DNA of 37,052 nt from a virus. The stretch is from positions 1-37,052 of the IMG/VR virus record IMGVR_UViG_3300027976_000097, one strand, 5' to 3'. Below, one piece after another: positions 28,821 through 32,744 of the stretch; within the stretch, counting starts at the first letter, position 1, and each line of letters starts with the position of its first letter. The notes under the pieces were generated by a model, which was given only the letters and a program-made list of their open reading frames with translations, did no database searches and had not been told where the DNA came from. The position numbers and the translations under genes are program-made.

Positions 28821-28828
28821 TATTTATC
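28821..28828 (-). promoter_or_regulatory. late-promoter box GATAAATA, 5 nt before ATG
   Basis: The minus strand reads GATAAATA ending 5 nt before the ATG at 28815; it abuts the end of the gp17 C-terminal gene. There is no Shine-Dalgarno sequence between box and start. T4-type geometry puts the transcript start at or next to the ATG. Confidence 0.55.
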
Positions 28829-30230
28829 AGTATCCCATACTAACAAAGATCGGCATTGGCATGGAATCTTCGCTGAGTTTTTCGGTCATTTTATCGTATA
28901 TTTGAGGATCCCAATCTGCCAGGACCTCTGCCATACGTACTACCAATAATGTAGAGCTTACTAAATCGTCATGCTCTCCACTTTTTGCTTTAAATCCTAC
29001 TCCGCTGGCAATAAATGTTTTTAATTCAGATAATAAAGGCTTGCTGCACAACGTCATTTTGTTAGTTTCAACCAGATTTTTAAGTTGACTACAGGCAGTA
29101 ACTTTACTTCGATGAGTAGTGTTAAATCCTTTACGGAACTTGCGGATATGACCTTTACGGATAGGCTCGCTTAGAAATAATCCCGGAAAGTTCTCTTCTC
29201 CTAGATCACTAATAACAATCAGTGCTGCTTCGCCCAGTGTATTATTCTCTACACTGTAATATATCTGTGGCATTGACCCTTTTTCTTCGCCACGCTGCTG
29301 AATGTATTTCAAAATATCTCGCATTACCCGAACCTGTTGTTGCACAGGAGTAGTATTGTGATGCCACTCTGCTATCTGAATCATGCTGGGCATTTCGTAC
29401 ACTTGAATAGCAGAATAGTCGCCTCCTGTTCCTAGACTAGGATCAAGTGCCAGCAAATATGTCGCCTTAGGATCAACGTCTTTGTACCATCGTGTCTGTC
29501 CCATATTCATTATAGGATCAATACCTGTCAACTCCATTAACTTGACACTGTTAATTAATGTTTCTTCAAAAATCAAGAACTCGCATTCAAATTCTCGACG
29601 GAATCGTTCTTCACCAATTTTACTACGTTCTACGTTGGCCCACTCATCATCACGTAGAGGGTTTTCGCGCCAGTGTGCAAAGTACGGAAAGAATCCGTTA
29701 GGGCCTAATTTTGTTTCGTTTCCAAAATCATCAAACCGTTTGTTAGCTTCTTTCCAAATCATAGCAAACTGATCTTCGTCTGAGTTTGGTGTACTGGTAA
29801 TAATTGCCTTACCACCAGTGGCTAATGTTGGTGATAATGCAGTCCAGAACTCTTTTGCCTTTTCAGGTGGCTGAACAAATGCGAATTCATCACACTGATG
29901 CGAATGGATCTTATTTGCAATAATAACATGGTTAGTTGCATTAAATATTTCATACGTATTACTCAACATAACGTCAACTATTTCCATTACTTGGAGTGCG
30001 CCGCTGGCTGAATCAAGATATATGCCAACCGTAATATCTATAACTTTTATTTCCTGACTAGATACAAAGAAACGGTGCTCATTAGTTGCAATTATGTAAG
30101 TGTTGTCTGCAAATATTATTTTTTTTGATGATTTGTTTGCACCTTCATTTAGGAAGATTCCGCTGAAATCTTCCCATCCATTAGGCGTTAGTATTTCATA
30201 TTCCGTATTATCGAGGTATAGTTGATTCAT
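28827..30230 (-). CDS. 17: terminase large subunit gp17, C-terminal part with C-intein
   Basis: A 467-residue product. Residues 1-112 are an unusually long C-intein starting [20 protein letters not shown] and ending [13 protein letters not shown]. Cys113 opens the extein: [13 protein letters not shown] (Walker B, with DE catalytic), then AIITSTPN (motif III coupling region), [16 protein letters not shown] (first nuclease aspartate), and the C-terminal [14 protein letters not shown] (nuclease aspartates). Terminase large subunit pumps and cuts DNA at the portal. The final residue of the intein is Gln, not Asn. The 5' end overlaps the HNH gene by 23 nt. Confidence 0.92.
29895..30230 (-). other. 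atypically split intein, C-terminal part (112 residues)
   Basis: The C-intein is much longer than the usual 35-50 residues and starts with an intein block A/B-type strand ([14 protein letters not shown]), with [10 protein letters not shown] (block B) and ...[17 protein letters not shown] at the end (blocks F/G). Together with the 39-residue N-part (31122-31238) it makes a near-normal total of 151 residues. This shifted split site is the arrangement known from AceL-TerL-type inteins. The splice product has Cys+1 (SLIY | CDEF). Confidence 0.85.
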
Positions 30231-31092
30231 ATATTTTTTCTAATATTCTAATTCCGCTTACTGGTATACCATCGGCTAAGTCCTGCTGTATCAAGGAAAT
30301 TACCAATTCAAACTCAGCGTTTGATTGTTCAATCGAATACCCGGCATTGACTAATAACTGTTCCATGGTCACATTACATTTAGTATGTTTTGACACGTTG
30401 TCCCTCCATGGAATCATTTTCAAATTTTGTAAATGTCCAATCACTAGTGGACTTATTTTATTTTTGTAACCAGCAAGTATAGAATATTGGTGATCAATAT
30501 GATGTGCACCTTCTTTTCCAGCTAGGCCGGTTACATATCCGTGAGTTAGGCTGCGTCTATGTTTTTCAGTTAGATATGTTATTACTGCTTTGTATCTATA
30601 AAATTCAGGACGTATTGTTGGGTCAGTAATCAATCCGTTTTTTGCTTTTGTAGAATTACCTACAACAATAGCCTTGCTGGCAAGTTGCGAGTATCCATTC
30701 CTGCCCAAGACATCGATGTTGGCCATATGGGTAGCACGAGTCTTTTGCCCTTTTTTAGCATAGCCCGATACACCAGTGCAGTCCAATTGGCCTAATACAG
30801 CCCTAGCTTTTTGTTGACCAACTTCGTATTTGGTCAAGCCAGTATTCACATCAATAATTTGCAATCCTAATTTAATATTATCTTTTCTCTTGTTGCAAAT
30901 ACGTTGGGTAATTGGATACGCAGTAAGATCCATTTCTAATATGTTAACTATGTAATTGTTCTTGATCATGCTAAGCCGTTGCTTGCTAATTGGGCAGACC
31001 ACATAGTCATATCCTTCAACTAAGCCTATTGCCCATAGATGCGAATTACGTTTTTGGTTTCGAGCGATAAATTGATCGAGTTTGGTTTTCAT
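30208..31092 (-). CDS. HNH endonuclease between the gp17 halves
   Basis: A 294-residue protein starting [20 protein letters not shown]. The HNH core is [30 protein letters not shown] and [12 protein letters not shown]. The N-terminal part has a zinc-like/NUMOD-type pattern ([11 protein letters not shown]) and basic repeats. It sits precisely between the gene pieces carrying the N- and C-inteins of gp17, as in 'fractured gene' arrangements. The ATG at 31092 is chosen over a TTG ten codons upstream because a perfect TATAAATA ends 4 nt before it. Confidence 0.8.
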
Positions 31093-31096
31093 ACAG

Positions 31097-31104
31097 TATT
31101 TATA
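31097..31104 (-). promoter_or_regulatory. late promoter TATAAATA, 4 nt before ATG
   Basis: The minus strand reads TATAAATA-CTGT-ATG, a perfect octamer 4 nt from the HNH start codon. The octamer lies inside the gap just after the gp17 N-terminal stop codon. There is no Shine-Dalgarno sequence. Confidence 0.6.
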
Positions 31105-31118
31105 CGAATGCAAACTCG

Positions 31119-32744
31119 TCAACTGATGACATGGACATTATTGTTTATTCTAGAATACAGTGCAGTCAACGTTATATCCTCTTCAACCAATGTTAGTTTA
31201 CTTCGAACTCGAACCGTAGTAGTGTCTCCATCTAGACAATAGATCAGTGATAGAGACTTACCACGGCCTGTATTTTCCGTTGTAGTTGTTGCTTGAATGC
31301 GTGAGCCGTTATCGTATTCGATAGTATTTCTGTTGTAGGTAATAACACCTGCGCGAATAAAGTCAGGAAGATTTTCGTAACCAAAACGGTAGCGATCCAT
31401 GATGTCTTTTGCACCTTCATACTTGTGTGCTGCAATAAGGACCTGCGCATCATTCATAAACATTGTATACCACAGTAGGTAAACAACTGCACAGGTTGTA
31501 TTGTGTGTGGGTATTAATGTTACGCCAGCTAAAAACAAATGATCATCGTTATCTACCTGCAAACATCTTACAGGAACACTATCAACTAGGGTTATTGCTC
31601 TGATATAAATTCTTTTATTTTTAGGATGATTTTTGTTTAGTCTTTGCCTCTCTAACTTTCTAGGCATTTTAAAAACATCAAAATCAGAGGTAGTAAAACA
31701 AAGAGTATATGCATCTTTGTGAGTGGTCTTTTTACGACTCACTGTAGATTTTATACCTAATGTGCTTAGTAATAGTCTTGCCTGTGTGATAAATTTTTCG
31801 TTAGATTGATAAAATCTGCAGACTCCGTTTTTTTCTACGGTGCCGTCTGTATCCATGAGTCCTTGTAATAGGGCTATTCTAGTGTCTAAATCATTAAAGA
31901 TGTATTCATCGGGTATATGTTTATTGCCCCATAGGTCTAATTTCTTATGCTCTTTAGCACCGCCTTTAACATAAAAGGTCCCGGTGCGCTGGCTCCTGCG
32001 ATCTATAGTAAAGTGACTAACCTCTAAAGATTTTTCTGCAAAGATTTTAGTATATTCTTTATAATCTTCCATAGTACAGGTTATTCTTAGATCTTTTGAC
32101 CCGCCATCCCCTAACCACACTCCTAGATAATATGGATCTAACATTACCTCTTTAGGTTCGAATTCCAAAGCGTTAGTGTGTTTAATGTGTATGCTTTGTG
32201 ATCCTGTAGAACACAGTTGGAATCTTTCTATAAGTTTTAAGGTAGTCCCTGTTATTTCTCGCCCTAGATGCGGATCATGCCAGTTCCACAAATGTTCGGC
32301 ATCTGCTACAATTTTCTCTCCGTGTATAAATTCAATTTCATAACAAGGCCTATCAGTCATAGTTTCTGTTATAAAGGTAATTGTGGTTTGTTTACCGTCA
32401 GATCCAAAAATATTGTCGCCTACTTTTAGATCGCCCATACTAACAAATCCAGTAGGGGTTAGTATAGGAGTCGAGTTACTGAGAGCTTTTCCCATCTGTC
32501 GAGGTAACATAGCAATACATTGCTTATTCTCAATAAAGGCAGTGATCAATCTTTCTTGATATTCGTAAGGCTCGAAAGGAATTGATCCCCTTACTGGATG
32601 CTGAATCTTGATAAAGTTTTTAGCAAAATATAGTGGCCCGGTAATAGGGTCCATACATTTTTCAAGATGCGTTACTTCCTCAAGTGTGTACCTGAGTTGA
32701 ACATGTGCTTTTTTAATCAGTACCCCATCTAAACTCTTACCCAT
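31119..32744 (-). CDS. 17: terminase large subunit gp17, N-terminal part with one full intein and an N-intein
   Basis: A 541-residue product. Residues 1-86 are gp17 up to the Walker A (MLPRQMGK at 79-86). Residues 87-415 are an intein (see separate entry). Residues 416-502 continue gp17 as [14 protein letters not shown]...NGSRIQ... to SLSLIY. Residues 503-541 are an N-intein beginning [14 protein letters not shown]. After both splices gp17 is about 528 residues (86 + 87 + 355). The ATG has AAGGGAG 7 nt upstream. A 67-residue ORF overlapping its start copies its first codons (see 32737). Confidence 0.92.
31122..31238 (-). other. atypically split intein, N-terminal part (39 residues)
   Basis: The N-intein starts at Cys503 of the gene product and is only 39 residues long (usual N-inteins are about 100). 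It includes block A ([20 protein letters not shown]) but no block B; the block B strand is in the C-part. It ends at the stop codon shortly before the HNH gene. Confidence 0.85.
31500..32486 (-). other. contiguous class 3-type intein in the gp17 Walker A motif
   Basis: A 329-residue in-frame insertion between Lys86 and Thr416 of the Walker A (PRQMGK | TTCAVV). It begins with Ala, not Cys/Ser ([14 protein letters not shown]), and ends IPTHN. Class 3 markers are all present: Trp67 in block B (AEHLW), Cys308 in block F (VRCLQV) and Thr327 in block G (PTHN). Two LAGLIDADG-type motifs are present ([23 protein letters not shown]), so a homing endonuclease domain is carried. In class 3 inteins Cys at block F does the first attack. 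Confidence 0.88.

Follow-up and report, generated by a model that had tools for sequence, protein, structure and literature searches.

How does a T4-like phage obtain an intact large terminase when the gene is cut through its Walker B motif? The question is raised by gp17 (the large terminase, TerL) at positions 28827-32744, minus strand, of a 37,052-nucleotide viral sequence (IMG/VR record IMGVR_UViG_3300027976_000097, positions 1 to 37,052; this whole stretch is called the window below), where the gene consists of two open reading frames (ORFs) with a third ORF in the gap. The explanation that we consider best, with a probability of roughly 0.75, is that the two gp17 products would be joined by a trans-splicing split intein, that the ORF between them encodes a putative homing endonuclease, and that a copy of extein DNA in front of the endonuclease gene would act as its operator. 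The N gene (32744-31119, minus strand, 541 amino acids) has a 39-amino-acid N-intein fragment (IntN) as its C-terminal end, and the C gene (30230-28827, minus strand, 467 amino acids) begins with a 112-amino-acid C-intein fragment (IntC), followed by 355 amino acids of extein from CDEFAF onwards. The middle ORF (31092-30208, minus strand, 294 amino acids) shares its last 23 nucleotides with the start of the C gene. Both outer ORFs match T4-type TerL (PHROG and Pfam). The features of the locus are:

32487-32744, minus strand: gp17 N-extein part 1 (86 amino acids, ending at Walker A, ..PRQMGK), contiguous with part 2 in intein-free relatives.
31500-32486, minus strand: a second, unsplit intein of 329 amino acids at Walker A, with a LAGLIDADG domain (LAGLIDADG_3, E 5e-11), Ala as first residue and a THN/T end; absent from relative L005 and from intein-free relatives.
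31239-31499, minus strand: gp17 N-extein part 2 (87 amino acids, TTCAVV..SLIY), up to Walker B, from the ORF translation and relatives.
31122-31238, minus strand: IntN, 39 amino acids, with 12 homologues; alignable with the N-terminal region of the unsplit intein of relative L069.
31103-31121, minus strand: out-of-frame DNA copy of the C-extein start, TGACGAGTTTGCATTCGTA, equivalent to the (C)DEFAFV codons, found by comparison across loci; a proposed operator mimicking the homing site.
31097-31104, minus strand: late promoter TATAAATA of the endonuclease gene, from sequence, overlapping the copy by two bases and lying 12 nucleotides before the ATG.
30208-31092, minus strand: predicted homing endonuclease gene, 294 amino acids, with an N-terminal site-specific domain of about 137 amino acids (putatively DNA-binding) and an HNH-like C-terminal domain, by motif.
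29895-30230, minus strand: IntC, 112 amino acids, with block B TxxH (TNEH) and C-terminal HQ, from sequence and homologues.
28827-29894, minus strand: gp17 C-extein, 355 amino acids, starting at CDEFAF (Walker B) and taking in the RNase H-like nuclease domain (Terminase_6C; relatives), stop codon included.

Both borders of the intein are right to the residue, because intein-free relatives join the exteins at exactly SLIY/CDEFAF. In 65 of the 80 related viral contigs that we examined (some end at a contig edge), the three extein segments (Nex1, Nex2 and Cex) are contiguous to the base, giving SLIYCDEFAF, and therefore the SLIY/CDEFAF junction is the intein junction. The D and E of CDEF we take to be the Walker B acids, after D255 and E256 of T4 gp17. 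The C-intein is found in 14 of the 80 relatives, the one relative left over is truncated, and L005 carries the split intein and lacks the one at Walker A. An earlier reading of this DNA from its letters and ORFs (the original prediction) had proposed that gp17 is encoded by two genes bearing a 39-residue N-intein and a 112-residue C-intein, with exteins joining as SLIY-CDEFAF at Walker B, and ORFs and relatives bear this out exactly. Two features were absent from it, namely the complete second intein in the N gene and the copy of extein DNA behind the N-intein stop.

Do the two fragments make up a single intein? In relatives L069 and L070 the same site holds one unsplit intein of 165 amino acids, with a single frame running through SMKQIYAPNTEYQILTPNGW to INSHQ/CDEF; the L069 intein is 69% identical to IntN of the window and 61% identical to IntC. 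An AlphaFold2 model of L069 (one row from an annotated phage record was left out of the input alignment) has a confident Hint fold, with a predicted local distance difference test score (pLDDT) of 90.6 and a predicted template modelling score of 0.84, and only residues 40-49, the linker at the split site, have a pLDDT below 50. Nearly all of the top 50 Foldseek hits of this model are inteins, including VidaL (6vgv), gp41-1 and Cat (6dsl), and the C-intein family profile, compared with the PDB, matches CatC (6dsl_B, E 9.1e-10) along almost the full length of the C fragment, and gp41-1 (E 3.5e-10). An alignment mixing IntN and IntC proved too weakly conserved to serve as a search profile. By way of this unsplit orthologue, the reading of IntN and IntC as one Hint domain is supported by both model and sequence. 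A structural model was also one of the checks that the original prediction had put forward, and it came out in its favour: the orthologue is one Hint domain, and residues 1-112 of the C part match inteins and not something else, the C-extein starting right after residue 112, so that neither of the outcomes named there as speaking against it was seen.

The residues needed for splicing are in place (Cys1, block B TNEH, H111, Q112 and Cys+1). The C-terminal Gln, which had been noticed from the start, is conserved in all relatives with an HNH-type endonuclease and in the Salicola phage SCTP-2. We propose that gp17 is made as two polypeptides, and that the 39-amino-acid IntN would dock into the 112-amino-acid IntC, completing one Hint fold, after which trans-splicing of SLIY to CDEFAF would restore Walker B by class 1 chemistry (Cys1, block-B TxxH, penultimate His, cyclisation of the C-terminal Gln, Cys+1). 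The Walker-A intein (31500-32486, minus strand) has an Ala start, a Trp after the block B His, a Cys in block F and a THN/T end, and thus looks like class 3; it would have to splice in cis. One may also consider that the gp17 pieces are never spliced and assemble non-covalently, like the NrdA halves of phage Aeh1 that are split by mobE. Such split enzymes do occur in T4-like phages (PMC2988022) and the terminal Gln replaces the usual Asn, yet intein blocks are kept in both fragments, with at least 50-60% identity across relatives, an unsplit orthologue occupies this very site, and Walker B is interrupted by a split that is flanked by Hint sequences both left and right. We therefore regard non-covalent assembly as highly improbable, and judging from the conserved sequences the gp17 halves are very probably joined by protein splicing.

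The Walker B site exists in four states among these phages: empty, split with an endonuclease, split without one, and unsplit. The third state is represented by L080, where the stop of the first gene and the start of the next overlap (ATATGA). The unsplit inteins of L069 and L070 retain a Met at the position that is first in the split C fragments, a hint that they arose by re-fusion of a split intein. A perfect 16-bp inverted repeat (about 834-876, TTCAGTTGATAATGTT..AACATTATCAACTGAA) sits in the linker of the L069 intein, exactly at the place that an endonuclease gene would occupy. Elsewhere, a diverged partial gp17 copy (extein parts 27-42% identical) lies directly before the intein-bearing gp17 and overlaps it (L077, L078 and L114), and four relatives (L086, L095, L096 and L098) have a further split intein within the C-extein, leaving TerL in three pieces there too; in L086 this intein reads REHD/CLSAKS .. 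VSN/CEP, with another endonuclease-like ORF between its halves.

The ORF between the intein halves carries a DH-x21-N-x8-N-x2-KH motif common to 20 homologues, in all of which D200, H201, N223, N232 and K235 are invariant, while H236 is kept in at least 90%. Its C-terminal half is 36% identical to free-standing proteins of the T4-like gp19.1 region, some of them annotated as homing endonucleases. Roughly one in three related loci has a Vsr-like C-terminal half instead (D..IEYQ..H, a name given at motif level), together with a C-intein that ends TKN/C. Between the HNH-like and Vsr-like types, residues 1-137 are 59% identical and residues 138-294 only 19%. The DNA of L003 is about 100% identical to that of the window up to endonuclease codon 139 or so, about 46% identical through the rest of the gene and the C-intein, and about 100% identical again from the C-extein, which looks like an exchange of a cassette behind a constant N-intein. 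Taken by itself L003 may be an assembly chimera, but the same layout recurs in L086-L089, L184, L198, L207 and L211. The endonuclease would spread the element into intein-free gp17 genes, and homing by this protein is likely.

The sequence between the N-intein and the endonuclease gene raises a further question. Directly behind the N-intein comes TGACGAGTTTGCATTCGTATAAATA, followed by the endonuclease ATG, and within it TGACGAGTTTGCATTCGTA encodes (C)DEFAFV out of frame, its TGA serving as the stop codon of the N gene. Almost all loci whose endonuclease gene is adjacent have such a copy; set against the C-extein start of its own locus, it agrees at 13-18 of 21 bases in each of 21 loci, and in 17 of them it is the best match anywhere in the locus. 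Across an alignment of 17 loci the mean entropy per site is 0.21 bit in the copy, as against 1.27 in the neighbouring tail of the N-intein and 0.96 over the opening 45 nucleotides of the endonuclease gene, and at wobble positions the copy (0.51) varies less than the true extein (1.05). A scan of 2.9 million viral contigs with a 24-base pattern found 42 places, every one of them in the gap between the N-intein and the endonuclease gene of this family. The 29 non-redundant elements with a copy comprise 20 with HNH-like and nine with Vsr-like catalytic domains (seven of the latter called by script and two by eye); the copy thus tracks the shared N-terminal domain, whichever catalytic domain follows. 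In the lineage of L118 and L124, where the extein reads CDELAFV, the copy has diverged and yet has the matching G. It is absent where no endonuclease follows (L069, L080) and where IntN and the endonuclease gene are not neighbours (SCTP-2 and the genome of L127).

The copy lies at a fixed spacing from the late promoter in nearly all loci. The original prediction had credited the endonuclease gene with a late box of its own, and TATAAATA is indeed found at 31104-31097, 12 nucleotides before the ATG. The motif NATAAATA precedes gene starts in the window eight times against 0.49 expected, and in the window plus 19 related loci 30 of 42 hits stand exactly 13 nucleotides before an ATG; it is a genuine T4-type late promoter signal in this phage group. 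Since T4 late-promoter geometry with a 13-nucleotide spacing puts the transcript start at the ATG, late mRNAs may be leaderless. Gene starts of the window with this motif include 24028, 28815, 34601 and 36996 (minus strand).

What, then, would keep the copy in place? We propose that the N-terminal domain of the endonuclease recognises the right half of its target (the CDEFAFV codons) and that the copy is an operator, to which the endonuclease would bind without cutting, because the left half of the target is missing, so repressing its own late transcription in the manner of T4 I-TevI. As the copy is associated with the shared N-terminal domain and not with the catalytic domain, it is the N-terminal domain that should bind. 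By analogy with I-TevI and from the conservation of the copy, we somewhat favour autorepression through it. We would give even odds to the more specific proposal that a single site-specific DNA-binding module, common to the unrelated families of HNH-like and Vsr-like nucleases, serves both to recognise the homing site at Walker B of TerL and to autorepress via the copied half-site. If so, catalytic domain and C-intein would be swapped together as one cassette while N-intein and operator stay constant, and no earlier homing-site operator of this kind is known to us from an intein system. The copy would also be a direct handle on endonuclease recognition, because an operator would spell out the half-site that is bound.

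Alternatively, the copy might be an insertion scar, left by target-site duplication or microhomology repair and kept by chance, with no autoregulation of the endonuclease. Insertion at the target would leave a direct repeat flanking the endonuclease and C-intein, and in most loci the copy is indeed out of frame with the N-intein. Yet the copy is nearly invariant although the endonuclease diverges to about 45-50% and the N-intein tail is scrambled, its wobble positions are more conserved than those of the true extein, its spacing to the late promoter hardly changes, and both nuclease types keep it; because an insertion scar leaves this constraint unexplained, we consider the scar possible but rather unlikely. 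Another option is that the copy acts as RNA: in read-through transcripts it would form a hairpin that covers the start codon of the endonuclease gene and, as with I-TevI, keeps the gene from being translated early. In the window (31060-31125, minus strand) the copy does pair with the first endonuclease codons (-21.1 kcal/mol, z -3.8), but most other loci lack such a hairpin (z -1.9 to +1.8) although the copy is conserved in all. Being strong in the window and not conserved in relatives, the hairpin was rejected as the reason for the conservation of the copy, and a role as RNA seems improbable.

Several observations weigh against the combination of split intein, homing endonuclease and operator. 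The window is a 37-kb fragment of a virus record. A C-terminal Gln is unusual and could slow splicing, although Gln-terminated inteins are reportedly known, Amitai and colleagues being said to have noted them in 2004. Pfam gave nothing for the endonuclease, its homologues or the T4-like gp19.1 homologues, and a comparison of its fold with the PDB gave no match (best Foldseek E 2.7, VIA-align Z 4.0). Thus, of the claim in the original prediction that an HNH endonuclease occupies the gap, the gene and its motif stand, while "HNH" becomes a motif-level call because it has no Pfam or PDB match. Which half of the target would be bound we infer from the copy alone. Finally, the copy is missing next to adjacent endonucleases that have an N-terminal extension (L126, L128 and L130), and therefore the arrangement in itself can do without it.

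The surroundings of gp17 are T4-like (SSB, UvsX, gp41-like helicase, tail tube, head closure), and a megablast search against phage records gave no match. Elsewhere in the window (10247-13013, minus strand) a canonical split intein also interrupts UvsW at its Walker B motif (IVDE/CHQAK), with a NUMOD3/TnsA-like endonuclease gene between the halves. The idea that an extein copy is a general feature of split inteins was discarded: the best match at the UvsW intein is 12 of 21 bases, which is the chance level, and none was seen in Campylobacter phage CP21. Just upstream of gp17, a 76-amino-acid ORF (32737-32967, minus strand) has a start (after an upstream GTG) like that of gp17 and a NUMOD3 motif at its end, and may be what is left of an endonuclease gene that took up a copy of the start of gp17.

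An endonuclease between split-intein halves, atypically split TerL inteins and fractured TerL inteins in cultured phages are already known. What is new is the gp17 intein family, the four allelic states at one site, the swap of two nuclease modules and the conserved homing-site copy at the promoter, a kind of copy that no paper in the literature we searched describes. The copy suggests, by analogy, that self-repression in the style of I-TevI evolved independently in inteins. The family is a large and divergent one of short-N split inteins, with N fragments of 37-39 amino acids and many members Gln-terminated at the C end, and such inteins are of use in labelling peptides and in tracing the origin of atypical splits. 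The rarity of atypical splits asserted in the original prediction has to be tempered, as dozens of contigs carry this one and cultured phages have fractured TerL inteins too.

Among known systems, the Campylobacter phages CP21 and vB_CcoM-IBB_35 likewise have a TerL split intein with an N fragment of about 36 amino acids and an endonuclease in the gap, but the site is another one (SC/CNIIVVDE), the endonuclease is of the GIY-YIG/T5orf172 type, and no extein copy was seen. The cultured Salicola phage SCTP-2 (MF360958) likewise has a C-intein whose final Gln precedes CDEFAF, and beside it the HNH homologue gp225, whereas its N fragment is about 100 amino acids long and seems to overlap the C fragment in content, and it has no extein copy. 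TerL of SCTP-2 (L081, L090, L091) lies in three far-apart genes (at about 429 kb, 257 kb and 216 kb), so that two trans-splicing events would be needed, and the last piece holds an additional unsplit intein.

Dassa et al. reportedly described, in 2009, fractured genes in which a homing endonuclease lies between the halves of a split intein, and the cases that we know of are all split at the canonical site. Phage MIJ3 PolB is likewise fractured by a split intein with an HNH endonuclease in the gap (PMC6892783). The gp17 locus has the same layout of a free endonuclease gene between the intein halves, but here the split is atypical, and HNH-like and Vsr-like types share one N-terminal domain and an operator-like element. 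T4 I-TevI represses itself through an operator that overlaps its late promoter and shares 15 of 20 bases with the I-TevI homing site (PMC2988022). The gp17 locus also has a homing-site-like sequence overlapping a late promoter just upstream of the endonuclease gene; in contrast to the intron-encoded GIY-YIG enzyme I-TevI, the protein here is intein-associated and HNH-like or Vsr-like, and the putative operator is known from sequence.

The closest relatives in architecture are AceL-TerL, GOS-TerL and Cat, with which we compared fragment lengths, split position and the CatC match. The N fragments of AceL-TerL and GOS-TerL are 25 and 37 amino acids long (PMC11766414). Host protein (TerL), short N fragment (39 amino acids here versus 25-37) and large C fragment (112 versus about 104, matching CatC, the AceL/GOS consensus) are alike, and, as the original prediction had it for AceL-TerL, the split is shifted to before block B, the C fragment starting just before the ..ILTPxG.. 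strand. The gp17 intein differs in its C-terminal Gln in place of Asn, in its low identity to Cat (about 25%), and in the site-specific endonuclease gene and homing-site-like operator candidate between its halves. Thus, because of the Hint model, the split position and the CatC match, it appears to be a new member of the AceL/GOS class, set in the layout of a fractured gene with a homing endonuclease.

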